Below, one piece after another: positions 34,757-64,000 of a DNA stretch of 64,000 bases; within the stretch, counting starts at the first letter, position 1, and each line of letters opens with the position of its first letter. The notes under the pieces are model-generated. The model was not told the DNA's origin. It searched no databases and saw only the letters and a program-made list of their open reading frames with translations. The translations under genes and the position numbers were made by a program. The stretch is from Bacteroidales bacterium. Lineage in GTDB: Bacteria; Bacteroidota; Bacteroidia; Bacteroidales; UBA932. The DNA lies in the NCBI GenBank assembly GCA_017453565.1, contig JAFTEQ010000001.1:23788-87787 (forward strand), given 5' to 3'.

Positions 34757-34759
34757 TCT

Positions 34760-36877
34760 ATGAAAAGGCTGCTTCTTTCTTTGCTTGCTGTAGCTCTTCT
34801 TGGGCAAAGGCCGCTCTGCGCCCACGAATTCGGAATCCGTGGTTTCCATGTGGATCACCGGACCCAGGTGATGACGCTCCCGGCGCTGAAGGCGTTGGCC
34901 GACAAAGCCGCTGCGGGAGGGCTCAACACCCTCCTGATGGAGTGGGAATCCTCCTTCCCCTTCCAGGAAAACGCCACCCTGTGCGGCCCCGATGCTTTTA
35001 CGCCAGAGGAACATAAGGAGTTTATCGACTACTGCGCCGCCCGGGGCATCGAGGTGATTCCCCTGCAGAACTGCTTCGGCCATGCGCAATACATCCTCCG
35101 CCATGAGCGTTACGCGTCATTGAGGGAGGACGACAATGACCGTTCGCAGGTCTGCCCGCTCAAAGTAGAGGAAGCCCGTGCCGTCTTTGGCAGCATTTTC
35201 AGTGAGATTGCCCGCGCCCACCCGTCCAGGTACATGCACATCGGTTGCGACGAAACCCGCTTGCTGGGCCGCTGCCCCCGCTGTGCGGAGAAAATGGCCC
35301 GGGACGGGATATCGCGCCTGTTCGTGGACTACGTGATTGAGATGTGCGCCCTGGTGCGCGCCCTTGGCAAGACGCCCGTCATCTGGGGCGACATGCTGCT
35401 CCAACACCCTGAAGCTGCAGACCTGCTGCCGAAGGACCTCATCGTGATGGACTGGAACTACGGCCGCCCGTTCAACCGTTTCGGCGATATCGGGGCGCTG
35501 CGCGCCAAGGGCTTCGAGATGTGGGGCGCCTCTGCGCTGCGCTGCGGCCCGGACAACATCTTTCTCACCAACTGGCCCAAACACTTTCATAACCTCGAAA
35601 ACTACCTCCCGTATTGCCGCAAGATGGGGTTCACGGGCATCGTGCAGACCTCCTGGTCTACCTCCGGCGCCTACGGCTACATCTATGACAACGGGCATGA
35701 GGTCATTGATATCCAGCCAATCCGCCAGGTCTATCCCATGTCGGGCTTCGATGTCCTGCAGCAGGCCTTCTGCGAAGCGGTGCGCATGCAGGGCCCCATG
35801 GATGCCGGGGCCTTCATCGAACGCTATACTGCAGCGCATTTCGGCCTGGGTGCGGACGGTGTCGCCGTCTTCAAGGACCTGTTCCTTCAGGACCAGCGCG
35901 AGGTGACCGGCCGCAATTTCAATGAGGAGACCATCCGTCGCGAACTGGCACGGGCAATGGACCTGCGCCGTCGTCTGGGCGCGTTGGTGCCTACCAGGGG
36001 AACTGCCGATTTCGTCCACTTCCCGTTGATGCTGGATATCCGCATCAATTACCTGCAGTTCATGGCCCTGCGTTGTGAATTCGAGTCGCCCTCGTTCCGT
36101 GCCGGACAGAAAGCGGCCCTGGCCGCCAGGCTGGCGCCCGTGTTGCAGGAAGCCCAGCGCCTGCGCCGTCGTTTCAGTCAGCTCAACGGCTTCTACCTCA
36201 AGCATCCGGAACAGTGCCTGAACGACTGGACTTACGTGAAACAGATGGAAAACCTCTCCCAAATCCTTAACAATCCTATGACCATTTCCCGCACCCCTGC
36301 CCAGGCCCCGCAGGCCATCGCCTGTCTGAACTGGGCCGAAGCCTACCCCTATGCTCCCGACGTGCAGTTCAACGCCTGGCACGACGGCGCCAACCTCTAC
36401 ATCGAATACAAGGTGAACGAAAAGACGACCCGCGCCCTTCAGAACGTACCCGGGAAGTTCGTCCACACCGATTCCTGCGTGGAGTTCTTCATCCAGCCCT
36501 CGAAGGACGATCCGCATTACTACAATTTTGAATGGAACGCGGGCGGCAACCTCTACCTGGCCCGCCGCACCAGCCGGCACGACCCGGAAGAGGCCCCGGC
36601 CTGGGTTCTCGAGAGCGTGGAGGCCGTTTCTTCCCTGGGCCCGGCGCCCTTTGCGGAAAGGGCCGTGGGCGGTCCCTGGACCCTGTGTGTGAAGATTCCC
36701 ATCTCGGCGCTTTGGGGTGACAAGTTTGAATCGTGGAGCGGCCTGCACGCCCGGGCCAACTTCTACAAATGCGGCGACGGCCTGCAGACGCCCCATTTCC
36801 TCACCTGGGTGCCTGTGAAAACACCCGCCCCCGACTACCACCGGCCCGAATTCTTCGCACCCGTCGAATTCTTGTAG
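34760..36877 (+). CDS. GH20-like beta-hexosaminidase with CBM9-like domain
   Basis: 705 residues with a Sec signal (LLGQRPLCA). The catalytic half is a GH20-type TIM barrel: FGIRGFHVDHRTQ at the start, NCFGHAQYIL, YMHIGCDETRLLGRC (the Asp-Glu pair that positions the acetamido group and donates the proton), TPVIWGDMLL. Residues ~505-705 look like a family-9 type carbohydrate-binding/DOMON sandwich (DSCVEFFIQPSKDDPHYYNFEWN). It would release GlcNAc-type sugars in the periplasm for the porter, nagA and nagB upstream. Starts 3 nt after nagB. Confidence 0.82.
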   Translation: MKRLLLSLLAVALLGQRPLCAHEFGIRGFHVDHRTQVMTLPALKALADKAAAGGLNTLLMEWESSFPFQENATLCGPDAFTPEEHKEFIDYCAARGIEVIPLQNCFGHAQYILRHERYASLREDDNDRSQVCPLKVEEARAVFGSIFSEIARAHPSRYMHIGCDETRLLGRCPRCAEKMARDGISRLFVDYVIEMCALVRALGKTPVIWGDMLLQHPEAADLLPKDLIVMDWNYGRPFNRFGDIGALRAKGFEMWGASALRCGPDNIFLTNWPKHFHNLENYLPYCRKMGFTGIVQTSWSTSGAYGYIYDNGHEVIDIQPIRQVYPMSGFDVLQQAFCEAVRMQGPMDAGAFIERYTAAHFGLGADGVAVFKDLFLQDQREVTGRNFNEETIRRELARAMDLRRRLGALVPTRGTADFVHFPLMLDIRINYLQFMALRCEFESPSFRAGQKAALAARLAPVLQEAQRLRRRFSQLNGFYLKHPEQCLNDWTYVKQMENLSQILNNPMTISRTPAQAPQAIACLNWAEAYPYAPDVQFNAWHDGANLYIEYKVNEKTTRALQNVPGKFVHTDSCVEFFIQPSKDDPHYYNFEWNAGGNLYLARRTSRHDPEEAPAWVLESVEAVSSLGPAPFAERAVGGPWTLCVKIPISALWGDKFESWSGLHARANFYKCGDGLQTPHFLTWVPVKTPAPDYHRPEFFAPVEFL

Positions 36878-47209: not shown

Positions 47210-47217
47210 TATTTTTG
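47210..47217 (+). promoter_or_regulatory. Promoter -7 box for the giant lipoprotein
   Basis: TATTTTTG matches TAnnTTTG, 30 nt before the ATG at 47248; no clear -33 TTTG. Confidence 0.45.
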
Positions 47218-47247
47218 CCAAGATTATCGATAATCCATTTTGACACT

Positions 47248-50200
47248 ATGATCAAAAAAATCTTTTATGGTGCTTTCGTGACATTGATGGCGTTGGTTTC
47301 ATGCGATTCAGCGACCGAGATCGAAACCCTTCAGCAGCAGATTGACGAGCTAAAGTCGGCCGACATTGCCACGATTCAGCAGCAGATTGCAGGAATAAGT
47401 GGTTCTCTAAATGCATTGGAAACGACTGATGCAGAGTTAAAAGGCTACATTAAGACGCTCCAGGAGCAAAAAGAAACGCTTGAACAGGCAGAGATGGACT
47501 TGGATCAAGCAATCAAAGACCTTCGGACTGAGTTCTCCGATGCAGTTTCAGCAGCGGAGGCCAGTTCGCTGGCGCAACTCGAGGCGTATAAAGCAAGTTT
47601 GGATGCGTCTATCCAGTCCATTCAATCAAAAATTAATGATTTGACGGCAAAGGATGCAGACCTTCAAGCACAGATAACGGCTTTAAGGAATTATATCGAC
47701 AACGAAATTAAATCCTTTATCAGCTCAGGGGATGATGCTGTAAAAAGCTGGGCGTCTGCTTCTTTCGCCACTCTTGCGCAGTATAACGCAACGGCAGAAA
47801 TCGTAACGGGAATCCAGGGCGATATTGAGGCCATCAACGACCGCATAAACGAACTTGCCGGTGGTGTTTCCAATTCTGGATTTGAGGAGGCGTTAGCTGC
47901 GCTTGATGCTAGTCTTCAAGAGAAAATAGCAAAGGCGGTGAGCGACTGCAACGATTCAATTACAGCAGCAAAGAATGAAATTACTGCTGCGTACACGGCA
48001 GCTATACGGGATGCGATTTCTGCAAGCGAGAACTCTATGAAGGTCTGGGTGAACGCTCAACTTGCCGGGTATTATACCATCGCGCAGACAGATGCAAAGA
48101 TTTCCGCTCTCAAGAGTAATCTCGAGGGACAGCTCAATAGTCAGAAGACCTACTTGGAGGGTCTTATCAGCAACCTTGAAAGCAGCTTGAATGGGAAGAT
48201 TGCTGCAAACAAAACCCTGATAGACGGTTTGCAGACGCAACTGAATGGACTTAGTAGCGATTTGGCGGAGTTAGCCGGGAAGGTGGTGGCCAACACCAAA
48301 AGTGTATCTGACAATGCAGCCGCCATTGCAGCCAATGCGCGTAGCATCACAGCCAATGCCAACGATATCGATGCCTGCGAACGTCTGATTGCGGCGAACA
48401 AAAGGCTCATAGAGGACAACACCTCCGCAATCAGCGCCAATGCCACTGCCATCACGGCGCTTCAGAACCGTACCTCAGCGGATGAGCAAAGTATTGCGTC
48501 CAATGCTGCAGCAATCGCGACGAATGCTTCCGATATAGCGGAGAACGCATCCTTGATTGCCGCCAATGCTACAGCTATTACCAATAATGCGAGGGCCATC
48601 AGCGACAATGCTGCAGCCATTGCCACATTGCGAACAGACTTGAATACCGCCCGCACCGAGATCACTTCTGCCTATCAGCAGGCAATCAGTTCAGCAATCA
48701 GCACTCTGGACGGGAAGTTGAGCGGCCAGTTGGCAACCGAGGTCGCAACCATCAATACGCGCATCGATAATGAGATTGCCGCTGTTGAAACGGCAATCGA
48801 TGCCCTTGCTGCCAGGGTTACCGCTTGCGAAAAGGACATCAAGAGCATTAAGAATACCATCTATTCGATGCAGCAGGACATCGAAGACCTGCAAGAGCAG
48901 GTGACTTCGATTCTTGCACGAATTCAGTCCATTACTTTCGCTCCTGCATATTCCGATGGGAAAGTGCCCGTAAGCTATACAGACAACGGAACGCTTACTC
49001 CCGGAACTGCCGTCCTGGACTTCAAACTTCAGCCTGCATTTACGGCTGCCGAACTCGTCAAGGTATGGCAGACGGCGCTCAAGATGGAAGCTGTATACAC
49101 CATCACAAAATCCGCTCCGTTGCAGGTGCAACTTCCCATAACCAGTGTGACGGCGGAAAACGGATTCATTACCGTGACCGTGAGTGGCAGTTCACTCAAA
49201 GAGGATTTCTTCCGTAGCCGTTGCAGCGCCAACGCTGCACTTGTCATTTCCGACGGGAACAACGAACTGGCCAGTGAATACGTCCCGCTGGTTCCCTGGA
49301 CAACCGATGTAATCTCTTTCGGATGCCCGAACTTCAAAGCCTACCTCGTGGAGAACTTCGACACGGATGGAGACGGCGAAATTACCGAAGATGAGGCAAA
49401 GGCGGTGACTAATATCACTGCATCTATGCTCAATATCACATCGCTTGTCGGCATTGAGTACTTCAGCAACCTGGAGACGATAGACGTGAGCTTTAATAAG
49501 TTGGAGGCGCTTAATCTTTCGCATTCTCCCAAAATGACGAGCATTTTGGCGAATGGCAACAAACTTCAGAGTCTTTCGCTGGCGGGGTTAACTGCCCTTC
49601 AGACGCTCGACTGCTCCAGCAACAAACTCACCGAGATAAACGTCAGCGAATCGGAAGGCCTGAAAAGCCTTATCTGTTCCGGGAATAACATTGGTACGCT
49701 CAACGTCAAGAAGAACAAGGCCCTCACCGACCTGCAGTGCTCCAATAACCAGCTCACATCTCTTGATCTTAAGAACAATACAGCACTAGAGACCCTTTAT
49801 TGCCGCAAGAACAGTATTGGCGTACTGGATGTGACCAAGCTTACTGCATTAAAGCACTTTGACTGCGCCAATAATAGTCTGTCTTCTTTGAACCTATATC
49901 AGAACACTCTTCTGGAGACGCTGTACTGCGGCAATAATAGCCTGACATCTCTGGGTGTCTCTGCCAATACCGCACTTACAGTCCTGGATTGTAGCGGAAA
50001 TGCCCTCACCGCTTTGGATCTCACCAAGAATGCGGCGCTGGAAACGCTCAGCTGCGCCAACAACGCGATGACCAGCCTGGATGTCAGCCGCAATGCGTCT
50101 CTGCTCTCGGTCAATTGCAAAGGTAATGTGTCAATGGCTAAGCTTTGGGTAAAGGATGCTGCGCAGGCGGCAGCGCTAACCATTCAGAAAGAGGACATTA

Positions 50201-51771
50201 CCCAGATTGCCTTCAACGACGGAGGCATCAACATCCCTGATGCCAACCTGAAGGCCTATCTACTGACTTTGTTCGATGATGACGAGGATGGAGAAATCAG
50301 CATCCTTGAGGCGGAGAACGTGCAGAATGTCAATTGCTCCGGACGCAGCATCGCCAGTCTTGTGGGTTTGGAAAGTTGCCCGAACCTGAAGTATGTGAAC
50401 TTCTCCGGGAATAGCGTGCCGGTGGTGGAATTGCCTAACCTGACGAAACTCGAGACCATCGTAGCTTATGGGAATCCCATTGAGCATTTGAATGTCGATA
50501 ACGATGCGGCTTTGGAAGCCCTTTATCTTCAAGCGGTAGACAAGAATGCTTTGATACCTCACGAAGAAGGACCTTGTGTATCGATTGAGGGATACAACCA
50601 AGCTCAGTCGCTTTTCCTTTCTTTTGAGGGGACGGGGCGGAAAACGCTGGTTTTGAAGGACAGTCCGTTGCTGACGTCAATCGACATATCAAACAATACG
50701 AGTCTCACGCACGTGAATGCAAGCGGGAACTCACTGATTTCACAGTTGAATGTGTCGACCTTGCCGAATCTAGCTTCTCTTGTGGTGAACGGTTGTTCGC
50801 TCACGTCGCTCAACGTCGAGAATAATCTCAAGCTGGGGTTGTTGAACTGTTCCGATAACAGTTTGGCCGCCTTGAACCTGGACAATAATGATGCACTCAA
50901 CGACTTAAACTGCGCGAGCAATCAACTCACAACCCTCCGCATCAGCAACAACCCCCTGCTGGAAACGGTCGATGTCTCCGACAACCAGTTGCTGAACCTC
51001 AATGTCCGTAACAACCCGCTCCTGAAGTCGCTGAATGTCGGCGGCAATGCAGGCATCACGGCCCTCGCCCTTGGCAACAACCCCGCCCTCGAGACCCTCG
51101 ACGCCTCCGGCACCGCCCTCACTGACATTGACCTCACTGCCAATACTGCGCTTACGGACCTCAACCTCAGCGGCTGCGCCGGTATCACAAGTATTAACCT
51201 CGCGGTCAATACCGCTCTGGTTGACCTCAACGTGGCATCAACGTCCCTCGCTACGCTTGATGTGTCGAATAACTCGGCCATCGATACGCTTGTGTTTGAT
51301 GGATGTACAATCAATGCAAGTGGTTTAAAAATAGGGGCCTATGTGAATGTGGCCAGTGAAAAGGGTGTTGTGTTCTATTCTTCCGGGTCTACGGTAAAAA
51401 TTGTTTCTGCGGATGAGGGTACTAAAAGGGCTTGGGGTTATGACGGGAGCATAACAGGTGCAAAGAGTGCTTCCGACGGGATGTTGAACACCGATATGAT
51501 TGTTTCGGGTTCAGCGGCCGCTAAATGGTGTAGAAATAAGGGTGTTATGTGGTATCTCCCCTCTAAAGATGAACTGGACGCAATTTTTAAAAATATATAC
51601 GCGTTGAACGCCACATTATCGTTAATTGACGGGGCGACGCTTAAAAGTAGCGTTTCATACTGGTCGTCTACTGAAGGCGATGTTAGCAATGCGTGGGCAG
51701 TTTCTCGTAGTGGAAGTGGTATTATATCCAAGAACTCCAACAATTATGTGCGTGCTGTTCGTGCTTTATAA
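47248..51771 (+). CDS. Giant coiled-coil/LRR lipoprotein with DUF1566-like end
   Basis: 1507 residues from the ATG at 47248, lipobox MALVSC (Cys19). Residues ~22-560 are coiled coil, with a very regular Asn/Ala-rich part (~347-465; IAANARSITANANDI style) like trimeric fibre stalks. A beta domain (~563-690) follows. Then come two leucine-rich-repeat blocks of ~21-residue units (LDCSNNQLTSLDLKNNTALE type), each preceded by an EF-hand-like loop (DTDGDGEITEDE near 703, DDDEDGEISILE near 1008). Residues ~1370-1507 are a DUF1566/FISUMP-like lectin-type domain (WYLPSKDELDAIF, YWSSTE, YVRAVRAL). Likely a long surface adhesin. GC is lower than in the flanking housekeeping genes. Confidence 0.8.
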   Translation: MIKKIFYGAFVTLMALVSCDSATEIETLQQQIDELKSADIATIQQQIAGISGSLNALETTDAELKGYIKTLQEQKETLEQAEMDLDQAIKDLRTEFSDAVSAAEASSLAQLEAYKASLDASIQSIQSKINDLTAKDADLQAQITALRNYIDNEIKSFISSGDDAVKSWASASFATLAQYNATAEIVTGIQGDIEAINDRINELAGGVSNSGFEEALAALDASLQEKIAKAVSDCNDSITAAKNEITAAYTAAIRDAISASENSMKVWVNAQLAGYYTIAQTDAKISALKSNLEGQLNSQKTYLEGLISNLESSLNGKIAANKTLIDGLQTQLNGLSSDLAELAGKVVANTKSVSDNAAAIAANARSITANANDIDACERLIAANKRLIEDNTSAISANATAITALQNRTSADEQSIASNAAAIATNASDIAENASLIAANATAITNNARAISDNAAAIATLRTDLNTARTEITSAYQQAISSAISTLDGKLSGQLATEVATINTRIDNEIAAVETAIDALAARVTACEKDIKSIKNTIYSMQQDIEDLQEQVTSILARIQSITFAPAYSDGKVPVSYTDNGTLTPGTAVLDFKLQPAFTAAELVKVWQTALKMEAVYTITKSAPLQVQLPITSVTAENGFITVTVSGSSLKEDFFRSRCSANAALVISDGNNELASEYVPLVPWTTDVISFGCPNFKAYLVENFDTDGDGEITEDEAKAVTNITASMLNITSLVGIEYFSNLETIDVSFNKLEALNLSHSPKMTSILANGNKLQSLSLAGLTALQTLDCSSNKLTEINVSESEGLKSLICSGNNIGTLNVKKNKALTDLQCSNNQLTSLDLKNNTALETLYCRKNSIGVLDVTKLTALKHFDCANNSLSSLNLYQNTLLETLYCGNNSLTSLGVSANTALTVLDCSGNALTALDLTKNAALETLSCANNAMTSLDVSRNASLLSVNCKGNVSMAKLWVKDAAQAAALTIQKEDITQIAFNDGGINIPDANLKAYLLTLFDDDEDGEISILEAENVQNVNCSGRSIASLVGLESCPNLKYVNFSGNSVPVVELPNLTKLETIVAYGNPIEHLNVDNDAALEALYLQAVDKNALIPHEEGPCVSIEGYNQAQSLFLSFEGTGRKTLVLKDSPLLTSIDISNNTSLTHVNASGNSLISQLNVSTLPNLASLVVNGCSLTSLNVENNLKLGLLNCSDNSLAALNLDNNDALNDLNCASNQLTTLRISNNPLLETVDVSDNQLLNLNVRNNPLLKSLNVGGNAGITALALGNNPALETLDASGTALTDIDLTANTALTDLNLSGCAGITSINLAVNTALVDLNVASTSLATLDVSNNSAIDTLVFDGCTINASGLKIGAYVNVASEKGVVFYSSGSTVKIVSADEGTKRAWGYDGSITGAKSASDGMLNTDMIVSGSAAAKWCRNKGVMWYLPSKDELDAIFKNIYALNATLSLIDGATLKSSVSYWSSTEGDVSNAWAVSRSGSGIISKNSNNYVRAVRAL

Positions 51772-52779: not shown

Positions 52780-54762
52780 TCATTTGTCCACCGCCACCTT
52801 CACCTCCCACCCTTTGGGGATGCCGTTGGGACTCTTGGTGGACCAGGGGGTGTCGGGTGGGCAACAGAAGATGCCGCCTGGGGGCGTTTCCAGGAGCCAG
52901 TGGGTGGTGCAATCGGGCGCTGAGATGTCGCGGGCGCGTACGTCAATTAGGGAAATGTGGTTGCAGTATTGGAACATGCCCAGGTAGCAGTGTTCTGTAA
53001 GGGTTTCGGCCGGAAGGACGGGCGTTTGGGTGAGCGCGTTGCAATAGGCGAACATAAAGGCGTAACAGGAGGGACTCAGGACGATGGCGGGCAGTTCCGG
53101 CGCCTTCTGAAGCCCGGATGAGGAGAACATGAACGAATAGCAGGACTCCTCCAGTTCCGTTGCCGGAAGATCCGGTGCTTCTGTAAGGGAAGTGCAGCCC
53201 TCGAACATCTGTTTGTAGCATTCCTTGCTCAGCGAGGTTGCGGGGAGCGCCGGTGCCTTCACGAGGGAGGTGCAGTCGTCGAACAGTTCCTGATAGGCGC
53301 CTTCGCTGATACGTAGTGCCGGGAGTTCGGGTGCGTCGGTGAGCGCCGTGCAGCCGGAGAACATGCGGTGATATCCGAACGGAGGAACCGCTTTCGCGGG
53401 CAGCGCAGGCGACGTGCGCAAGGCGGTGCAGCCTTCAAACATGGATTGATAGCAGTAACCTTTGAGTTCGGTGGCGGGGAGTTCGGGTGCCTCCGTCAGG
53501 CCAGTACAGCCACGGAACATCCACCGGTAGCAGCCGACGGCGAGCGTGGTGGCTGGAAGGAGCAGTTTCTTTTTGGGGTGAAAGCGCAGATTGGGATTCT
53601 CTTCAAAGAGACGGGCGAAGTTGTGGCTGCGTGTGAGTGTTGTCAGGCCCTCGAAACAGGTGGAGTCGATGAGACTCATAATGTTGCCGTACACGTAGCA
53701 CAACCCTTGCGTCTTGAAGTGGGAATATTTCCGCTTTTCCAGTGAACCGCTCGAGTAGCCGTAGCGCTTGCCCCGCACGTACACAAGATCGCGGCGCTTG
53801 AGCGGGATGGAGAAGCCGCTGCTGTCGGCTGTTATCCAGTGTATGGCGTCATAGCTATACTGAACAGGTGTTTTAGGGCCCAGGGTGAATGTCAGGCGTC
53901 CGTCTTCGATGGCCTCGAAACAGAGCCCCGTCCAGTTGTTCTTTACCGGGAAGAGCGACGAGATGAAATTGAGTACGGGGTTGTGCCACCACAGGAGCGG
54001 GGCAATCACGACGGCGGCCGCGATTACGGCGGGCCAGGGGAACTTGCGCCGGCGTTCCAGGGCCTCGCGGACTTGTTCCACGCTGCTCCAGCGGCGGTGT
54101 GGGTTGAGGCTGCAGCAGCGGCGAACCACCTTTTTGGGGCCGACGCCCAACTCTGTGAGGATGATGCCAAGCGAGTAGATGTCGCTCCGGCAGTCCGCCT
54201 TGCCGCCCATCAGTTCCGGCGCCACATATCCCACGGTGCCGGCCTTCTCTTTTAGGACGGCCCAACGATCCGAATCGGCGAAGCCCAGATCGATGAGTTT
54301 TACGTGCCCTCCGTCTTTTGTGATGAGGATGTTGGCGGGTTTGAGGTCGCGGTGGATAATCTGCCGCTCATGCAGGTACGACAGCGCCCGGCAGAGTTCG
54401 TCGACCAGTTGCCGGCGCTGCTCGGGAATCTGCCCGGCGGCCAGAAGGTCTTCCAGGCTGCTGCCTTCCACATATTCCAGTTCCACGCAAAGACCGAGCT
54501 GAGGGTGCTCGATCAGCGCGTAGCTGCGGCGGATGAAAGGCGACTGAAGGTCCTTGCCCAGTTCGTATTCCTTTCGGAGCCATTCCTTGAGATAAAGATC
54601 GTTGCGATACTCTTCCCTGAGACACTTGAGCACGCGCCACTGCCCTTCGCGTACGCAGCGCCAGAGTTCCGTATAGCCTTCACTGCGATGGAGAAGTTCC
54701 AGGTTCTGCGAACCCGGATCGAGCGGTGAAAGTTTGCTGTCAAAGAATCCGGAAACGGGCAT
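52780..54762 (-). CDS. Transmembrane Hanks-type Ser/Thr kinase with BspA-like repeats
   Basis: 660 residues. Residues ~20-235 are an intact eukaryotic-like kinase: Lys46 in WRVLKCL, HRDLKPANI (Asp139), DLGFAD in place of DFG (Asp158), GTVGYVAPEL and SDIYSLGIIL. A single membrane helix (~242-259) follows. The outer part ends in eight repeats of ~23 residues of the BspA-like LRR type (consensus LPATxLxxxCYxxMFxGCTxLTxAPE). No PASTA domain. It probably senses an extracytoplasmic ligand or partner. It follows the 187-residue gene by 8 nt, so the two form an operon. Confidence 0.88.
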   Translation of the reverse strand: MPVSGFFDSKLSPLDPGSQNLELLHRSEGYTELWRCVREGQWRVLKCLREEYRNDLYLKEWLRKEYELGKDLQSPFIRRSYALIEHPQLGLCVELEYVEGSSLEDLLAAGQIPEQRRQLVDELCRALSYLHERQIIHRDLKPANILITKDGGHVKLIDLGFADSDRWAVLKEKAGTVGYVAPELMGGKADCRSDIYSLGIILTELGVGPKKVVRRCCSLNPHRRWSSVEQVREALERRRKFPWPAVIAAAVVIAPLLWWHNPVLNFISSLFPVKNNWTGLCFEAIEDGRLTFTLGPKTPVQYSYDAIHWITADSSGFSIPLKRRDLVYVRGKRYGYSSGSLEKRKYSHFKTQGLCYVYGNIMSLIDSTCFEGLTTLTRSHNFARLFEENPNLRFHPKKKLLLPATTLAVGCYRWMFRGCTGLTEAPELPATELKGYCYQSMFEGCTALRTSPALPAKAVPPFGYHRMFSGCTALTDAPELPALRISEGAYQELFDDCTSLVKAPALPATSLSKECYKQMFEGCTSLTEAPDLPATELEESCYSFMFSSSGLQKAPELPAIVLSPSCYAFMFAYCNALTQTPVLPAETLTEHCYLGMFQYCNHISLIDVRARDISAPDCTTHWLLETPPGGIFCCPPDTPWSTKSPNGIPKGWEVKVAVDK

Positions 54763-55369: not shown

Positions 55370-55405
55370 AAAAGAAACGGAAAAGAACTGTTTTCCGTTT
55401 CTTTT
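55370..55405. terminator. Perfect 15-bp bidirectional terminator hairpin
   Basis: AAAAGAAACGGAAAA (55370-55384), loop GAACTG, TTTTCCGTTTCTTTT (55391-55405). The stem is perfect, with A-run and T-run at the two ends, as for a two-way Rho-independent terminator. It lies between the host-type kinase operon and the first genes of the phage-like element. Confidence 0.75.
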
Positions 55406-55533
55406 GTCTGGATGACAGGATTTTACACTCCGACTTTAGACAAAAAGCCCTATTTGATTATCAATGAGTTATAATTCCCGAAGCCTCGGATTTTTCACAA
55501 AATAGGGGTATTTTTGGCGCGTTTTTGTCCCGG

Positions 55534-55812
55534 TTACTCCTTCGCATCTACCAGAGCTGCAAGCCCTTCCAGACGCTTCTCCAGCTCCTGGAAGCGGATC
55601 CGGTTCATCGCCTGGTTAAAATCCAAAGTGGCGGCCACCACCAGCTGGGCGATGACTCCAGGATGGGCGTCCGCCCAGCCCTTCCCCTTCAATGCTTCCA
55701 TCCTGGCCTCAATTTTCCCGTATAAATCCACGACGCCATCCGGCGCCTGGGCGTATAACTCCGAGCGGTTCAAGCTCTCGCCCTCATAGTGTCCGTCCTT
55801 TGTATAACTCAT
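55534..55812 (-). CDS. Small phage-region protein, unknown
   Basis: 92 residues, starting MSYTKDGHYEGESLNRSELY. Mostly helical and charged (GKIEARMEALKGKGWADAHP, FQELEKRLEGLAALVDAKE), with a hydrophobic stretch VIAQLVVAATLDF too short and mixed for a membrane helix. It follows the repressor gene by 2 nt and is probably co-expressed with it in the lysogenic state. Function unknown. Confidence 0.65.
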   Translation of the reverse strand: MSYTKDGHYEGESLNRSELYAQAPDGVVDLYGKIEARMEALKGKGWADAHPGVIAQLVVAATLDFNQAMNRIRFQELEKRLEGLAALVDAKE

Positions 55813-55814
55813 GG

Positions 55815-56174
55815 CTATTTATTTAATATCTCGATATTGTTCTCTCCGAAGACCAGCTTCAGGACCTGGTCCTTCTTCTCCTTTGTGAGTCTCATCTGAA
55901 GAAGTACCTCCGTAGGACTGCTTGTGCTGTCCTCCTGGGGATAGAATTTTATCGGCCAGGTCAAGAGATCAATCTCCCGAAGAGAGAGTCCCCTCGCTAT
56001 TTTAGAGAGATGGTCCATAGTAAGGCGCTGCGTTTTGTTCAATATTTTCGACAGCGCCTTCTCTGGTATATCTGACGAAACGGACAAGCCCGCCTGGTTC
56101 AAGCCGCTCTTTACGAGGGCCTTCCGTATATTTTCCACTATTTGGTTAGTGAAGGGAGTCTGCTCTATTTCCAT
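55815..56174 (-). CDS. Phage repressor-like HTH protein
   Basis: 119 residues. Residues ~8-65 are a Cro/C1-type helix-turn-helix (IRKALVKSGLNQAGLSVSSDIPEKALSKILNKTQRLTMDHLSKIARGLS). The C-terminal half is short, with no peptidase motif, so it is not a LexA/CI self-cleaving repressor. Its position, divergent from the early genes, makes it the likely lysogeny regulator. A TAAATTTG box ends 5 nt before its ATG. Confidence 0.8.
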   Translation of the reverse strand: MEIEQTPFTNQIVENIRKALVKSGLNQAGLSVSSDIPEKALSKILNKTQRLTMDHLSKIARGLSLREIDLLTWPIKFYPQEDSTSSPTEVLLQMRLTKEKKDQVLKLVFGENNIEILNK

Positions 56175-56179
56175 AAGTA

Positions 56180-56283
56180 CAAATTTAGCTATTGATTTTC
56201 AGCGCGTTATGACTTTTTAAGAGAATTTCTTACCAAATTAGAGAGAAAATATTTCCTTTTTAGAGATTAAATACCTATTTTTG
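56180..56283. promoter_or_regulatory. Divergent early promoters and candidate operators
   Basis: The gap 56175-56365 carries TAAATTTG facing left (56187-56180) and TATTTTTG facing right (56276-56283). Between them, the heptamers TAAGAGA (56218-56224), TTAGAGA (56238-56244) and TTAGAGA (56260-56266) recur at 20-22-bp steps, about two helical turns, as expected for repressor operators. Regulation by the adjacent repressor is inference. Confidence 0.5.
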
Positions 56284-56365
56284 CCACATAGAAATATATT
56301 TTCATATCGTGCCACAAAGGTACGATATAATAGAAAGCCCGTAAATAGCAAATTTTTACTACAAG

Positions 56366-56578
56366 ATGGCAAAGTATGCATTCAAAAAAGGGTGGGATCA
56401 GCTGCCCAACGTCAAACTGGGCGAGGCCCGGGAGAAACTGAAAAACGCGCTCGGAGTCACGGCCGACTCCAACTTCTACCGCCGGCTCCGCGGCATCCCG
56501 GAGCCTACAATATCCGAAGGAGAGGCCATCGTGGCCATCTTCGCCGAATACGGCATCACTGACATCTGGGGAGAATAA
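56366..56578 (+). CDS. Small Cro-like DNA-binding protein
   Basis: 70 residues (MAKYAFKKGWDQLPNVKLGE). The centre AREKLKNALGVTADSNFYRRLRGIPEPTISEGEAIVAIFAEYGI has the helix-turn-helix spacing seen in small Bacteroidota phage proteins at the start of the early operon. The first rightward gene after the control region and opposite to the repressor, so a Cro- or Ner-like role is likely. Confidence 0.7.
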   Translation: MAKYAFKKGWDQLPNVKLGEAREKLKNALGVTADSNFYRRLRGIPEPTISEGEAIVAIFAEYGITDIWGE

Positions 56579-56581
56579 GGC

Positions 56582-56977
56582 ATGGACCGACTGACACCCA
56601 GAGAGAAAGAGGTGGCCGAGATGGTCGCATGGGGAGCTTCCGCCAAAGAAGTCCCCGGCCTTCTCCGCAAAAAATCAGGCGGACGGGAGATATCCGTCTA
56701 TACCGTCCAGAACCTCCTCGCGAGAATCTACGCTAAAATACACCTTAACAAGGCGAACGAGCTGTCGGCCTGGTGGTTTACCCATACCCACCCGGCCGAC
56801 ATCGTCGCCCCTCTTCCTGAACTCGGGAAGAGGATCCTGGGCTTCTTCCTTTTCCTGCTTCTTCTCCCTCAAATCGCCAACGCCGACATCGACCAGGCCG
56901 TCCGAGCATCCCGAACTCGCTCACCGCGTCCCACGGAACAGGTGGCCCGCTCTCGGCGCAAAGATGAAAACGTATAA
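56582..56977 (+). CDS. LuxR-type HTH protein with a membrane segment
   Basis: 131 residues. Residues 1-65 are a GerE/LuxR helix-turn-helix (LTPREKEVAEMVAWGASAKEV, SVYTVQNLLARIYAKIHL). Residues ~85-103 are hydrophobic (ILGFFLFLLLLPQIANA) and could be a membrane helix, followed by a basic tail (RSRRKDENV). No receiver or sensor domain. A membrane-tethered DNA-binding protein would be unusual. 3 nt after the preceding gene. Confidence 0.7.
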   Translation: MDRLTPREKEVAEMVAWGASAKEVPGLLRKKSGGREISVYTVQNLLARIYAKIHLNKANELSAWWFTHTHPADIVAPLPELGKRILGFFLFLLLLPQIANADIDQAVRASRTRSPRPTEQVARSRRKDENV

Positions 56978-57345: not shown

Positions 57346-60300
57346 ATGCCGAAAATCAAGCAAGACATATTTGAACGAATAATGGAGCGCCAGGATGAAG
57401 ACAAGAACGTCCTCCTGGAAGTCATAAAGGAACACACACAGCTCCGGAGAGAGGGCGCGAGCTTCAAGGGCGAGTGCCCATGCTGCCACGCGAACGCCAT
57501 GGTGGTCACGCCCGGGAAGGGCTTCTACTGTCACAGCTGCAACACCTTCAAAGGAAAAACGGCCTACCACTACCTCACCCAGGGCCTCGGAAAGACTACG
57601 ACCGAAGCAGTGGAAGAGCTGGCCCATCATCTGAACATCTTCGTCGAGTACGAGGAGTACGAGCGCCCCATCCAGACAAAAAGGCGGGGCTCTGACGAGT
57701 TCTGCTCGCGGATGCTGAAGTCTTCAGGACTCACCCGCGAGGACGTCAAGGCCAGGGTGTATGTCAACCCGGGCGACGACGCCACCCGCGACTTCGAGAC
57801 CTTCCAGAGCGGCACCATGACACCGAAGGGCGACCTGGTCGCAGGCGACGACGCCGTCATCTACTACTACGACCTGGAAGGCCGGCCGGTTACATATACG
57901 CCGGAGGGCGACAAGGAAGGCCGCCCCCGCCAGTACTACCGCGTCCGCTACCAATTCCCCGAAATGCACAAAGACAAGAAGGAAGGGAAGCCGATGAAGT
58001 ACCGCACCCCCTACGGTGCGCCCGCGTTCATTTACTACCCCCAGGCCATCCGGAAGGCCTACCAGGCCCAGACGCCCATAGAGACGCTGTACGTCCAGGA
58101 AGGCGAGAAGAAAGCCGAAAAAGCCACGAAGCACGGCATCCCATCCGTCGCCGTGTCCGGCATCCAGAACATCGCCCAGAAGGGGAAGCTGCCGGAGGAT
58201 CTGGTGAAGCTCATCGAGGTCTGCAAGGTCAAGGAGGTCATCTTCCTCCTGGACTCCGACTGCATGGACCTATCCCACGAGCTCCGGGTGGACGTTCCCA
58301 TCGAGAAGCGCCCCAAGAACTTCTTCTACGCCGTCAGGAACTTCCGCGACTACTTCAACGCGCTCGCCAGGTCCCAGCGGCTGTACGTCGAGATCCTCTT
58401 CGGCTACGTCCTCAAAAACGAGGCGAACGACAAAGGCATCGACGACCTCCTGGCCAACACCCTCAAAAAAGACCCGGGCGCCCTGGCCAAGGACATCGCC
58501 GACGCCAGGAACAGGAAGCCGATGACGGGCTCCTACGTCCAGCTCTACAAGATATCCACCTACTCCGACAACAAGCTCATGGAGATCTGGCACCTCCAGG
58601 CTCCGAAGGACTTCGCCCTCCAGTATATCGACCAGCTGAAGGACCTCCCGGAGTTTACCTTCGGCGGCCGTCGCTACCGCTTCAACGACAAGGGCGAGTT
58701 CGAGAGCGCCCAGCCCATCGAGGCGGACGAGAAGTTCTGGACCGACGTCAAACGGAAGGACGAGACCCTGGACGCCGCCTTTGACTACGACGGCGCCAAG
58801 AACTTCCTGGAGCATCGCGGCTTCTGGAGGCACGAGAAGCCCAACCACGAGTACGAGTTCGTCCACGTCGACGGCCAGATTGTCAGCGAAGTCAAGCCGC
58901 ACCAGATCGCCGATTTTATCAAACAATTCGCCCAGGACACCCTCCCCAAATACGTCCGGAACATGCTCCACCGCGGAGTCACCCAGTACTTCGGGCCCGT
59001 CTCTCTTTCCATGCTCGGCTACTTCACCGAGCCTTTTGACCGTCCAGCCTACGGCACGGAGCGGCTCTTCTTCCGGAACACCATATGGGAGATCACGGCC
59101 GACCACATCAAGTCCATCCCCTACACGTCCCTCGGCTTCTACATCTGGGGCATCCAGCGGAAGGACTTCGAGGTCACGGAACTCCCTGAGCTCATCCGGA
59201 TCCACGAAGAGGATGGCATCTGGAGCTACACCATCACCCCGGAGGGGCAGAAGTGCGACTTCCTCCGCTTCCTGGAGAACACCAGCAACTTCACCTGGAG
59301 GAAGGCCCCGAACGAAGTGACGGAGCAGGACCGCCGCGAGAACGCGCAGCACCTCGTCTCCAAGCTCTCCGCCCTGGGCTACCTCGTGGCCACCGGCAAG
59401 TCGAAGAGCATCTCGAAGGCGGTGATCGGCATGGACGGGAAGCAGTCGGAGGTCGGCGTCTCCAACGGCCGAAGCGGAAAGTCCCTGCTCGGCGATGCTG
59501 TCCGTCAGGTCGTTGACTCCGTCTATAAGAACGGGAAGGAGTTCACCGGCGGAAAGTTCAGCCCCTTCGTCTGGGATGGCGTCAATGAGCGGACGCGCTT
59601 CGTCTTCCTGGATGACGCCCAGAAGGACTTCGACTTTGAGTCCCTCTTCGCGCTCATCACCGGAGACTGGCCGGTCAACCCCAAAGGCGAGAAGGGCTTC
59701 ACCATCCCATGGTCACGCTCCCCGAAGATTTACATCTCCACGAACCACGCAGCGGTCGGCGACGGCGCCAGCTTCGAGGATCGCCAGTGGCTCATCGCCT
59801 TCTCCGACTTCTACAACACGACCCACAAGCCGATCCATGACTTCGGCACCCACTTCTTCAGCGACGAGTGGAGCTCGGAGCAGTGGAACAGCTTCTGGAA
59901 CCTGGTGGCCACCTGCCTCCGGATTTTTTTCCGTTTCGGTTTCGTCTGCGCTCCTGGCGACCGTCTGGAGAAGCGGAAGCTCCTCCAGGACGTGGGCGAG
60001 GAGTTCGTCCAGTGGGCCGACGAGTACTACAGCCCCGCCACGGAAGCCGGCAAGGTCTCCAAGCTGAACCAGGTGGACATCCCCAGGAAGGTCATCTACG
60101 ACAACTTCCTGGAGTATATCGGCCCGGCCAGGCGCACCTTCTACAACCCCAGGAACTTCAAGGCGAAGCTGCTCAAATACTGCGACCTCCGCGGCTATAT
60201 CTTCAACCCCCAGATCTTCGACCCTGTCCGCAAAGTCTACATCGGCAAGCCGAACGACGACGGAGTTCCCTCCAAGGACATCAAGCGCAACGGAACGGAG

Positions 60301-60432
60301 TATTTCACGGTGGGGAACGAGAACTACTACCAGAGCGAGCCGCAGATCTTCAACGAGGCCACCGACTCCGACGGCTCCACTCCGTCCTACATCCCGTCCT
60401 TCTCCGTAGATACCGACGACATCCCGGACTAA
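57346..60432 (+). CDS. Phage primase-helicase
   Basis: 1028 residues. N-terminal CHC2-type zinc finger (Cys44/Cys47/Cys62/Cys65, in GECPCCH and FYCHSC), Toprim-like catalytic part (VQEGEKKAEK, VIFLLDSDCMD; residues ~240-310), a long linker, and a C-terminal helicase-type ATPase: Walker A SNGRSGKS (~705-714), Walker B FVFLDDAQKDF, sensor KIYISTNHA (~795). Architecture is that of D5/P4-like replication proteins, which open and prime the element's origin. It is the largest gene of the element and suggests independent replication rather than Mu-type transposition. Confidence 0.88.
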   Translation: MPKIKQDIFERIMERQDEDKNVLLEVIKEHTQLRREGASFKGECPCCHANAMVVTPGKGFYCHSCNTFKGKTAYHYLTQGLGKTTTEAVEELAHHLNIFVEYEEYERPIQTKRRGSDEFCSRMLKSSGLTREDVKARVYVNPGDDATRDFETFQSGTMTPKGDLVAGDDAVIYYYDLEGRPVTYTPEGDKEGRPRQYYRVRYQFPEMHKDKKEGKPMKYRTPYGAPAFIYYPQAIRKAYQAQTPIETLYVQEGEKKAEKATKHGIPSVAVSGIQNIAQKGKLPEDLVKLIEVCKVKEVIFLLDSDCMDLSHELRVDVPIEKRPKNFFYAVRNFRDYFNALARSQRLYVEILFGYVLKNEANDKGIDDLLANTLKKDPGALAKDIADARNRKPMTGSYVQLYKISTYSDNKLMEIWHLQAPKDFALQYIDQLKDLPEFTFGGRRYRFNDKGEFESAQPIEADEKFWTDVKRKDETLDAAFDYDGAKNFLEHRGFWRHEKPNHEYEFVHVDGQIVSEVKPHQIADFIKQFAQDTLPKYVRNMLHRGVTQYFGPVSLSMLGYFTEPFDRPAYGTERLFFRNTIWEITADHIKSIPYTSLGFYIWGIQRKDFEVTELPELIRIHEEDGIWSYTITPEGQKCDFLRFLENTSNFTWRKAPNEVTEQDRRENAQHLVSKLSALGYLVATGKSKSISKAVIGMDGKQSEVGVSNGRSGKSLLGDAVRQVVDSVYKNGKEFTGGKFSPFVWDGVNERTRFVFLDDAQKDFDFESLFALITGDWPVNPKGEKGFTIPWSRSPKIYISTNHAAVGDGASFEDRQWLIAFSDFYNTTHKPIHDFGTHFFSDEWSSEQWNSFWNLVATCLRIFFRFGFVCAPGDRLEKRKLLQDVGEEFVQWADEYYSPATEAGKVSKLNQVDIPRKVIYDNFLEYIGPARRTFYNPRNFKAKLLKYCDLRGYIFNPQIFDPVRKVYIGKPNDDGVPSKDIKRNGTEYFTVGNENYYQSEPQIFNEATDSDGSTPSYIPSFSVDTDDIPD

Positions 60433-60433
60433 C

Positions 60434-60748
60434 ATGAACGAGTGCTTCCTTCTCCGATACACCTGGCAGACCGAGCAGTTCCGGGAGCGCTTCGCGGACT
60501 TTATCAGCAAATACGCCGAGAAGTACCGCGAGTGGTTCCAGGGGCTGCCGCTCTACGAGTGGGTCCGGATCCCGTGGACGGGGAAGCTCCTGGAGCCATC
60601 CATCAAGATCCTCTGCCTGCTCTATATCGAGGGGAAGATCAACCTGACGTTCGACCGGACCGTCACCATGGTCCAGCGCGGGGCCCTCTCCGAGGAAGAG
60701 TACCAGGAGTGGGCGGCCAAGTACTTCAAGAATTACACAAAATCATAA
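60434..60748 (+). CDS. Hypothetical phage protein
   Basis: 104 residues, starting MNECFLLRYTWQTEQFRERF 1 nt after the primase stop. Rich in aromatic residues (WFQGLPLYEWVRIPWTGKLLEP). No membrane helix and no motif recognised. Spacing shows it belongs to the early operon. Confidence 0.65.
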   Translation: MNECFLLRYTWQTEQFRERFADFISKYAEKYREWFQGLPLYEWVRIPWTGKLLEPSIKILCLLYIEGKINLTFDRTVTMVQRGALSEEEYQEWAAKYFKNYTKS

Positions 60749-60752
60749 AAAC

Positions 60753-61172
60753 ATGGAAATCACACACACCGTCACCGTCGAGGACGTCATCCAGAACACC
60801 GACTCGTTCAAGAAAAACCTCCAGGCCATCATCCTCCAGCGGGCCAGGACTTTCCAGGCAAAGAACGACTACCGCCGCAAGAACCACATGGCCCCGCTGC
60901 CGGACGATCCTGTCCTGTCGCTGGCCAGAATAGGCGCCGACCGCCTGGTCACTCTTTACGTCGAAGTCCGCGAGCGCCGCTGCTCTTTGTCGTCTCCAGC
61001 TCGCCGAGTCCTCTCCGAGTGCGGCGACGAGGCCGTGAAGGCCTCCATGGCGGACTTCACCCGGAAAATCCTCCAGGAACCCGCCCAAAAGCCCGCAGAA
61101 GCACCCGCGACCGACAAACCGAAGAGGCAGCCGGCAGCAAGGAAAAAGACCGCCAAAACGCCGGAAAAATGA
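60753..61172 (+). CDS. Hypothetical phage protein with basic tail
   Basis: 139 residues. Helical charged N-terminal part (VEDVIQNTDSFKKNLQAIIL) and a low-complexity Ala/Pro/Lys tail (KPKRQPAARKKTAKTPEK), which may bind nucleic acid. Its stop overlaps the next start (ATGA at 61169-61172). Function unknown. Confidence 0.65.
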   Translation: MEITHTVTVEDVIQNTDSFKKNLQAIILQRARTFQAKNDYRRKNHMAPLPDDPVLSLARIGADRLVTLYVEVRERRCSLSSPARRVLSECGDEAVKASMADFTRKILQEPAQKPAEAPATDKPKRQPAARKKTAKTPEK

Positions 61173-61906
61173 GAAAAATCGAGCTATCACAGGAACAAGA
61201 GGAGATCCTCCTGGAACACTTCGCCGCCACCCCGAAGAGAGAGCTGGCCGACATGCTGGGGATCTCCCTCCCTACTCTCTACAGGCTCGCCCACAATTAC
61301 GGGGTGGGTCTGCCGGGCCCGGCCAACAAGATCCTCCTGGACGATGAGCAGCTGGACTACCTGGTTCGCCACTTCAAGGACCGCGAGAACGAGTTCCTGG
61401 CCTACAAGCTCGGCATCAGCGAGTCAACACTCCACCGGCTGGCCAGGCGCTACGGCCTGACGAAGTCCCAGGCCTACCTGAAGGCCCGCAGCGTCGAGGG
61501 TGGCCACACTTCCATCTACTACCACCGGAAGAGGGGGACCTCGTTCATCCCAAAGAAGGGAGACCCGGTCCGCCCTGGGAGCGAGAAGGGCTGGTTCAAA
61601 CCAGGAGAGAAGCCGGTCGACAGGATAGGGCCCAAGAGAGAGGCCGAGAGGATCCAGCGTGCGGCCGCTTCAAGGAGAGCCACCCGCCTCGATGAGTTCG
61701 TCCGAGTCCAGAAGGGACTACCGCAGAAGACAAAGCTGAAGTTCCGGACGATACCGCCGAAGGCCTACGCCGAGCGTCACTACCTGAAGGCCCGCGGCTA
61801 TATCCTGGACAATTTCGCCCTCATGGCCTACTATACGCCGGACACCCGCCGCTGCCCCCGCCTGGAAGCCAATCCCCACATCTATCACTTCGCACCCGCA
61901 GTATAA
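61169..61906 (+). CDS. Tandem helix-turn-helix protein
   Basis: 245 residues from the ATG at 61169. Two successive HTH units of the resolvase/homeodomain kind: LADMLGISLPTLYRLAHNYG and LAYKLGISESTLHRLARRYG, about 53 residues apart. Then a basic Gly/Pro-rich linker (RKRGTSFIPKKGDPV, KGWFKPGEKP) like the DNA-binding repeats next to homing nucleases, and a C-terminal part without recognisable nuclease motif. Probably a phage DNA-binding regulator. Confidence 0.75.
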   Translation: MRKIELSQEQEEILLEHFAATPKRELADMLGISLPTLYRLAHNYGVGLPGPANKILLDDEQLDYLVRHFKDRENEFLAYKLGISESTLHRLARRYGLTKSQAYLKARSVEGGHTSIYYHRKRGTSFIPKKGDPVRPGSEKGWFKPGEKPVDRIGPKREAERIQRAAASRRATRLDEFVRVQKGLPQKTKLKFRTIPPKAYAERHYLKARGYILDNFALMAYYTPDTRRCPRLEANPHIYHFAPAV

Positions 61907-61923: not shown

Positions 61924-62187
61924 ATGCAAATCATCATCAACTCGGCCGAGGAGCTCATCGAGCTCCGGAAGGCCCTCTGCGTTTACAGGAAACGCCGCCA
62001 GCTCAGCATCGACTCCATCCAACGCCTCCGCGAAAAGACCCGGGGGAGGGTAATTGTTCCGGAGCTTAAAAAAAGCCAGACACTGGAAGACCTCGACGCC
62101 ATCCGCCAGGAAATGATCAACAAGCGCCAGGCCTCCATCGACTGGGCCTCCGACTTCATCGAACAAATCAATCTACAAATCCAATAA
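61924..62187 (+). CDS. Helical phage protein upstream of the DGR-like ORF
   Basis: 87 residues (MQIIINSAEELIELRKALCV), predicted to be two long charged helices. Its last 70 nt overlap the open frame of the following DUF1566-like ORF, which lacks a usual start codon, so translational coupling or a frameshift between the two is possible. Function unknown. Confidence 0.65.
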   Translation: MQIIINSAEELIELRKALCVYRKRRQLSIDSIQRLREKTRGRVIVPELKKSQTLEDLDAIRQEMINKRQASIDWASDFIEQINLQIQ

Positions 62188-62191
62188 AATC

Positions 62192-62752
62192 CTGAACAAG
62201 ACACGCAACAATGACGTCCAAGCGGCCGTCCTGGACCTCGTAAAGGCCCGCATCGAGTACAACAACCCAGACATCTCCCGGAACCGCCTCACGGCTCTCC
62301 GTCATAAATACGGAGAAGGAACCCTCAGCAACGCCCCCATCCAGGCCACCATCGAGACCGGCGGCCTGGCAGTTCTCGCCCAGCTCATCGCCCCGGCCTG
62401 GGATGCAGAGCGCGGCGGCGTCTACATCCCTCTCCTGAACATCATCCTCCAGCCGAAGAACCTGGCCACCGAAAGCGGCGAACACTATATCGAGTGGGAG
62501 GAAGCGAACCGCCTGGCCGCAGTCGCTGGCGGCCGGCTCTTCACGAAAGAAGAGGCCCACCTTCTCTACTGGCAGAAGGACGCCATCAACGCCATCCTGA
62601 AAGAACACGGCGGCGAGCTGCTCGATGGTTACTTCTGGTCCTCGTCCGAGTATGTTGAGCCCTACGCCTGGTACGTCGGTTTCTCGTCGGGCGTCGTGGC
62701 CTACGTCAACAAGTTCAGCTCGTACGTGGCGCGAGCCGTCGTAGCATTATAA
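62192..62752 (+). CDS. DUF1566-like protein with DGR-type variable C-terminus
   Basis: The open frame runs 62117-62752. No ATG, GTG or TTG occurs in it until codons inside the last 60 nt, so the start is uncertain; the CTG at 62192, 4 nt after the previous stop, gives (M)NKTRNNDVQAAVLDLVKA. Residues ~75-186 resemble DUF1566/lectin-type ends: YIEWEEANRLAAVAGGRLFTKEEAHLL, then WSSSE, AW, K and the closing RAV. In that closing part, conserved positions are as in DGR target proteins, while the positions that are Asn (AAC) in template repeats hold Tyr, Val, Gly, Ser, Ala, Pro or Phe. A binding protein of the element, if expressed. Confidence 0.55.
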   Translation: MNKTRNNDVQAAVLDLVKARIEYNNPDISRNRLTALRHKYGEGTLSNAPIQATIETGGLAVLAQLIAPAWDAERGGVYIPLLNIILQPKNLATESGEHYIEWEEANRLAAVAGGRLFTKEEAHLLYWQKDAINAILKEHGGELLDGYFWSSSEYVEPYAWYVGFSSGVVAYVNKFSSYVARAVVAL

Positions 62753-62762
62753 TCTATTATTT

Positions 62763-62788
62763 GCCTGCGGACTTCGACGTCCGCAGGC
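62763..62788 (+). other. GC-rich hairpin just after the variable region
   Basis: GCCTGCGGAC-TTCGAC-GTCCGCAGGC, a perfect 10-bp stem with a 6-nt loop, 10 nt after the stop of the DUF1566-like ORF. Hairpins at this position are a known aid to retrohoming in DGRs. It could equally be a plain terminator, but there is no U-run (it is followed by CTAAAACC). Confidence 0.6.
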
Positions 62789-63987: not shown

Positions 63988-64000
63988 GATACACCACCGC
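63984..64000 (+). CDS. Start of next gene, cut by window edge
   Basis: An ATG at 63984 overlaps the preceding stop as ATGA and reads MRYTT before the window ends. After a holin-like gene a lysis enzyme would be usual, but five codons cannot support that. Confidence 0.3.

Follow-up and report, generated by a model that had tools for sequence, protein, structure and literature searches.

The 3' end of a small C-type-lectin-like gene in a Bacteroidales prophage is very probably a remote variable repeat of a phage-borne diversity-generating retroelement

A small prophage gene ending in a variable repeat

The stretch of DNA analysed here, referred to below as the window, comprises 64,000 nucleotides (nt) of a Bacteroidales contig (JAFTEQ010000001.1) and ends within a prophage. 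A small gene of this prophage terminates in what is very probably the variable repeat (VR) of a phage-borne diversity-generating retroelement (DGR) acting in trans, that is, from a reverse transcriptase (RT) and a template repeat (TR) located far from the gene. The features concerned are the following.

62192..62752, + strand: putative remote DGR target gene, encoding a protein of about 186 amino acids (aa) with a C-terminal C-type-lectin-like (Lcl_C/DUF1566-like) domain
62633..62746, + strand: VR, a block of 114 nt homologous to the TR of the relative G202
62763..62788, + strand: stem-loop with a perfect 10-bp stem and a 6-nt loop, 10 nt past the stop codon

The open reading frame (ORF) of the target gene extends from 62117 to its stop codon at 62750-62752 and holds no ATG, GTG or TTG upstream of the VR, which corresponds to its last 38 codons or so. 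The most likely start codon is the CTG at 62192, taken as such because two relatives carry ATG at that codon, and the product would then be 186 aa long; this CTG could be genuine but rare as a start, or result from mutation or from a sequencing error. The Pfam family Lcl_C (PF07603) matches the window protein with 22.3 bits and the G202 copy with 27.1 bits, both below the curated cut-off of 34.9. Despite these scores, the predicted model of the protein agrees with Lcl_C and displays a C-type lectin fold with the VR at the C-terminus of the domain; the N-terminus is modelled as helical at low confidence, residues 1-62 being unreliable (predicted local distance difference test mostly <50). A sequence search of solved structures matched one chain, Lcl (8q4e, molecule listed as HbP1). 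Six Lcl_C matches were obtained in the genome to which the window belongs, one of them being the target gene; only some C-termini of the other five were inspected.

To express adenine bias, mismatches at TR adenines are given over all mismatches, VR1 being the repeat of the target near the RT and VR2 that of the remote target; comparisons extend over 114 nt for the window, L022 and G202, and over 120 nt for G200, G032, G048 and G204. The window VR differs from the G202 TR at 20 of 114 nt, and 18 of these mismatches fall on TR adenines, of which the block has 32 (hypergeometric p 1.7e-10), while the remaining two are silent third-position changes in a Ser and an Arg codon. The same bias was found in the relatives: 17/17 in L022, 16/16 for VR1 and 9/9 for VR2 in G202, 11/11 and 15/15 in G200, 20/20 for VR1 of G032, 13/16 and 16/18 in G048, and 16/17 and 16/18 in G204, which was counted once with G203 since the two carry identical target and VR. 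These data support the preliminary description of this DNA, made from the window alone, which had proposed a DGR-type VR at the end of a DUF1566-like ORF of about 186 residues. Two points of its pattern of fixed and variable residues need correction, the G202 TR having 12 Asn codons: the Tyr of a 'YV' pair said to be fixed is variable (Asn in the G202 TR), and the Glu following this Tyr-Val, thought to stand at a template Asn position, is encoded by GAG in both the G202 TR and the window.

The preliminary description had also expected the variable codons to differ among relatives, which is the case. Between the target alleles of L060 and L061, 19 of 114 nt of the VR differ, distributed as 9, 10 and 0 over the three codon positions (dN 0.259, dS 0), as compared to 11 of 444 nt (2.5%) in the 5' part, distributed as 5, 1 and 5 over 148 codons. 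Near-identical target alleles of relatives, outside the window's own population, have thus undergone recent hypervariation. The differences between the window and L060 are distributed as 9, 9 and 2 in the VR and as 23, 30 and 52 in the 5' part (Fisher test on positions 1+2 versus 3, p 0.0011; the test used 54 versus 52 for the 5' part, one codon more than the 148-codon count, which gives 53 versus 52). Outside the VR, the gene is constrained, with a dN/dS of about 0.38 for the window versus L060.

These sequence comparisons also bear on whether the 3' end is an ordinary conserved Lcl_C/DUF1566 domain merely resembling a VR. Such a reading could draw on the occurrence of the WSS..E / AW.V / G / K / VR pattern in other Lcl_C-like domains, one example being that of the host gene at 47215-51771, for which the window contained no repeat. 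It is refuted by the adenine-specific match to the TRs of relatives, by the unchanged third positions and by the hairpin, and we give it virtually no chance. The host gene itself encodes a 1518-aa coiled-coil/leucine-rich-repeat protein with a terminal Lcl_C-like domain (26.0 bits) and a VR-like C-terminus, of which an adenine-type copy was not found within the window. In the genome G082 (L026), a 1510-aa ORF also matches the C-terminal part of the small target.

The hairpin downstream of the VR

In known DGRs, a hairpin is located downstream of VRs and not of TRs. The stem-loop that follows the window VR has its arms at 62763-62772 and 62779-62788, a perfect 10-bp stem 10 nt past the stop codon as first described. 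When perfect Watson-Crick stems with a loop of 3-8 nt were sought within the next 60 nt, 8 of 12 VR ends had a stem of at least 10 bp, three a stem of 7-8 bp and one a stem of 4 bp, the 12 cases not being all independent since G200 and G032 share hairpin sequences. The five TR ends had stems of 3-4 bp only, and among 5000 random 60-nt stretches drawn from the window, 5 held a stem of at least 10 bp. When eight VR ends were folded (those of the window and L022, and of both VRs of G200, G032 and G048), the stems began 6-19 nt beyond the VR tail and had energies between -20.6 and -34.6 kcal/mol, as compared to -12.9 to -15.2 kcal/mol for three TR ends.

Relatives carry the RT, the TR and two targets

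A search of viral contigs with the window target protein alone led to no relatives, which were reached with the primase encoded upstream and with the alignment. Primase and target are found in the same order in the window, in L022 (IMG/VR 3300037455_000727), in L021 (3300022660_003969) and in the genome G032, and the target gene was also recovered in G048. In G202, G200, G032, G048 and G204, the target matches a TR of its own contig at a distance of 30-37 kb, as the preliminary description had supposed in placing the RT and TR elsewhere. All five display a two-target layout, with one target beside the RT and a remote, small one of DUF1566 type; for the window prophage, it is the remote target that is visible. 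The case shows that a DGR target can be recognised through the TR of a relative even when the RT lies past the end of the contig.

The nearest relative with an RT is G202 (L061 contig, IMG/VR 3300037454_000738, 40331 bp), in which the target occupies 795-1355, the TR lies at about 33963, some 33 kb from the target, and the RT at 34275-35006. There, a VR1 gene of 1926 aa is followed by a 172-aa ORF, by a 538-aa RT ORF that contains the TR in frame, by small genes and by the integrase gene. The 1926-aa gene is probably a tail gene, judging by its size and position and by precedent, although the PHROG families that it matches are of unknown function. The 172-aa ORF between VR1 and the RT is a candidate Avd-type accessory gene with no convincing Pfam or PHROG match. 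The G202 RT matched RVT_1 (E 3.3e-7, 30.6 bits versus a cut-off of 29.6) and phrog_1423 (E 4.1e-51). RVT_1 was above cut-off in G202 and G204 and below it in G200, G032 and G048 (weakly in G048, E 0.09), the matches of G200 (on the contig of L021), G032 and G048 each sharing a contig with the target. The RTs of G200, G032, G204 and G048 are 38-57% identical to the body of the G202 RT (E 2e-73 or better). An SQ motif is a mark of DGR RTs, and the RTs of G202 and G032 contain the VDD catalytic motif and an IGNITSQ stretch. A scan in which mismatches were penalised except at the adenines of the copy revealed, in each of G200, G032 and G048, a TR adjacent to the RT and, about 720-800 nt before it, another VR, with scores of 50-105 versus a background of 12-24.

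The presence of VR1 and VR2, sharing a TR-homologous block on one genome, might suggest that the small gene is mainly an archive storing VR variants for recombination into the tail gene. Purifying selection acts on the N-terminal part, however, and in the window, L022, G200 and G032 the gene has retained its place a few small genes past the primase; we consider an archive most improbable.

An in-frame TR within the 5' end of the RT ORF was a frequent arrangement (L069-L091, e.g. L100:9868-11484): the repeat was found in 18 of the 21 RT loci scanned and was clear, with >90% of mismatches at A, in 12, at least three of which look like copies of one phage. The stretch ahead of the TR in this ORF shows no excess of third-position changes (8,6,7, 8,5,5 and 2,3,3 differences by codon position) and may be conserved as an RNA element rather than as protein. 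At L077:10049 onward, the repeat in the RT ORF is VR-like, with Tyr, Ser and Gly replacing Asn codons, and it looks as if this template had itself been rewritten with a loss of adenines.

Several candidates were set aside. Dulem virus 29 had no adenine-biased copy of its gene in its 18-kb locus. G205 (small target L066, contig C29) had no TR match in the stretches fetched, and its RVT_1 match, which lies on a different contig, does not match the G202 RT. The small DUF1566 gene of G144 had no TR in the 19 kb inspected. Scanning 16 RT contigs, some of them short, with the target profile led to an extra small ORF in two, G209 and G212, and to none in the other 14; in these two, the match to the RT-frame repeat is interrupted, so that neither is a clean case. 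A second RT, distinct from the TR-bearing RT gp25 of phage BS-TP1, was noticed 1-3 kb downstream of a small DUF1566 gene in BS-TP1 (gp79, L039:13026-14288) and in G144 (L054:10350-11699).

The window prophage and its missing half

The window contains the left 8.6 kb or so of the integrated prophage, from 55402 to beyond 64000, with the following features besides those listed above.

55402..55426, + strand: left edge of the prophage and probable attL core, where DNA homology to permuted G202 begins
55534-55812, - strand: left-end gene
55815-56174, - strand: XRE-like left-end gene
56366-56578, + strand: left-end gene
56582-56977, + strand: LuxR-like left-end gene
57346..60432, + strand: primase-like replication protein, upstream of the target and in the same direction
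60434-60748, 60753-61172, 61169-61906 (helix-turn-helix protein) and 61924-62187, + strand: four small genes between the primase and the target

The primase-like protein contains a CHC2 zinc finger (E 1.5e-8) and matches phrog_6444, DNA primase (E 7.7e-11), its best PHROG match being phrog_28855, of unknown function (E 6.3e-42). The order of the first three small genes is kept in L022, which shares 79-86% DNA identity with the window over the common part, and G202 carries homologous DNA over most of 55534..56977. Position 55402 aligns with position 14264 of L100, adjoining the G202 integrase gene, and homology runs rightward from there. Because the homology starts beside this integrase gene, G202 is taken as the permuted or circularised form and the window as the integrated left end. 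The full prophage would be about 44 kb, as obtained by adding to the 40.3 kb of G202 the 3.7 kb or so of the window that G202 lacks, and the TR would lie about 11 kb from the remote target in the circle and about 30 kb from it in the prophage. Near the left edge, at 52780-54762 on the - strand, lies a gene for a 660-aa protein whose N-terminus looks by eye like a Ser/Thr kinase (HRDLKPANIL), followed by repeats.

Several results weigh against a DGR target at this locus. As the preliminary description had stated, the window has no RT or TR: an ungapped scan of it gave no second copy of the VR. Its proposal to look past 64000 and through the genome could be followed only in part, since the contig ends exactly at 64000; in the assembly, which is 1.95 Mb long and 76.5% complete, an RVT_1 search returned no RT and blastn no second VR copy or TR, whereas the relatives have both. 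An exact-match search of the same genome retrieved no second copy of the att core. The CTG start could signal a decaying gene. Elsewhere, VR2 of G032 has only 19/32 mismatches at adenines by plain count, with a one-codon indel at its 5' end, and no stem of more than 4 bp was seen in the 60 nt following VR2 of G204. In the published phage Bacuni_F1, the remote VR differs from its own TR with 15/16 mismatches at A in a 100-nt core and only 18/27 over the full 120 nt, and in BS-TP1, the remote gene gp76 has 13/18 mismatches at A relative to the TR in gp25.

The RT of a relative, searched against the window's own genome, matched only the VR itself (E 0.025), a match due to the TR peptide encoded within this RT ORF, and the next 6.5 kb of L022 gave no match there. 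The remainder of the prophage was thus not found in this bin. The lack of RT, TR and second att core in the assembly, together with the replacement of ATG by CTG at the start, would fit a relic, in which the visible half of the prophage would be defective and the VR a trace left by earlier mutagenesis. Against this, the contig end at 64000 explains the missing half, the ORF is intact and constrained outside the VR (dN/dS about 0.38 versus L060), and the copies of two relatives hypervary at 2.5% divergence elsewhere in the gene, so that a relic is improbable. Taken together, the evidence that the 3' end of 62192-62752 is a DGR target is strong, and continuing activity of the window copy rests on the relatives, by analogy with which its own RT would exist and be active.

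Proposed mechanism and role of the remote target

In the mechanism that we propose, the phage integrated at about 55402 would carry, near its right end some 30 kb further on, the RT, an accessory gene, the TR and the first target, as in the five relatives. This first target would be a very large, probably tail, gene sharing the C-terminal domain of the small target. The TR RNA would be reverse-transcribed with random bases at adenines, and the cDNA would replace the VR upstream of the hairpin, thereby rewriting residues of the C-type-lectin domain of what is presumably a binding protein.

Phage DGRs are mostly understood as tail-tropism switches. The small target could be a second adsorption protein, exposed on the virion or on the surface and involved in host choice, its place among early genes being incidental; this concerns its role only and is a serious possibility, if somewhat short of an even chance. 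Against it, a signal-like segment was lacking in nine target N-termini, the highest 12-residue mean hydropathy being 0.52-1.65 against 2.08 and 3.22 in two lipoprotein-like controls. Replication, recombination or methylation genes flank the remote target in four kinds of phage, namely the window prophage, G048, G204 and Bacuni_F1: as next recognisable genes, that of a YqaJ recombinase precedes the target in G048 and that of an N6-methylase/SNF2 protein follows it, while in G204 a C5-methylase gene precedes it and one of the same N6-methylase/SNF2 type follows, and the Bacuni_F1 gene has as neighbours DNA polymerase A (with one small ORF between), methyltransferase and primase genes. Bacuni F1 and F4 infect different hosts, and F1 and F2 the same host, according to the portions covered of their description (PMC8143477). 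Despite this difference in hosts, the remote targets of F1 and F4 are identical, and F1 and F2 differ by 16 nt in the remote gene (L136:22548-23222, L141:201-875), as compared to 1 nt in the near target; all 16 fall within the last 113 nt of the gene, 15 of them on TR adenines. The portions covered of the Bacuni description do not contain this comparison. In these three isolates, a single data set with a partial genome for F2, the remote VR does not track host range; the remote target varies independently of the near one in this, the one isolate set compared.

On the basis of the gene neighbourhood, the lack of a signal-like segment and the Bacuni comparison, we weakly favour, at about even odds, a soluble binding protein, expressed along with the replication module at an early stage of infection and distinct from the tail receptor-binding protein. 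Other data plead against an early soluble binder. The neighbourhood is not general: the genes around gp76 of BS-TP1 are mostly hypothetical, and the ORF ahead of the small target in G209 is YopX-like. The small target itself is not general among RT contigs (2/16). A broader proposal, that small early cytoplasmic C-lectins among DNA-metabolism genes are recurrent non-virion DGR targets hypermutated in trans by the tail DGR, is speculative and rather doubtful. If true, the phage would diversify, in addition to its tail, an intracellular interaction such as one with a host factor for defence or replication. Among the titles and abstract beginnings of the literature matches listed, none described a phage DGR target as early or intracellular. 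That several kinds of Bacteroidales phages keep a small second target among their genes for DNA metabolism raises the question of what else a phage must diversify.

Comparison with known systems

The DGR of Bordetella phage BPP-1 has a single target, the tail protein Mtd, encoded beside the RT. The group 3 DGRs of the DiGReF survey resemble the present ones in that the TR overlaps the 5' end of the RT ORF, and the present phage group is not described in the portions of that survey covered (PMC3521204). One DGR serves two targets both in the Faecalibacterium prophages Lelie and CP11 (PMC11792537), where the targets differ in size, and in the tentaclin phages nd4 and nd12 (PMC10743442), where they differ in topology. 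In contrast to the Lcl_C-like targets considered here, theirs are of DUF6273 or Ig type, with no remote target among replication genes in the portions covered of the two articles. Targets far from the RT/TR core are known from the DGR of Treponema denticola, which differs in being cellular, its authors having found no phage association in the parts of the report covered (PMC4891356).

BS-TP1 (PQ571274) is similar to the present phages in its RT gp25 with a TR in the 5' end, a gene annotated as four-helix bundle, the 2187-aa gp27 with a VR-like C-terminus, and the remote 223-aa DUF1566 protein gp76, encoded about 50 kb from the TR. It differs in being a 111-kb phage, in the unlike N-terminal part of the small target, and in gp27 having only a partial TR match in an ungapped scan.

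The closest likeness in layout is to Bacuni_F1, in which one target lies beside Avd, TR and RT and another, small one (225 aa) is remote, about 12 kb from the TR. It differs by having the TR in a small separate ORF before the RT and a near target of 253 aa as opposed to 1926 aa in G202, and its RT shares 32.5% identity with that of G032. Both DUF1566-type targets of Bacuni_F1/F2/F4, with adenine mutations in both, are described in the portions of the original report covered (PMC8143477). A two-target layout with a remote DUF1566 gene is therefore already known, and the window prophage is a new member; the small target among early genes that the preliminary description had considered unusual is borne out by the relatives, yet has this precedent. 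Since Bacuni phages are cultured, they make the question of the role of the small target directly testable.
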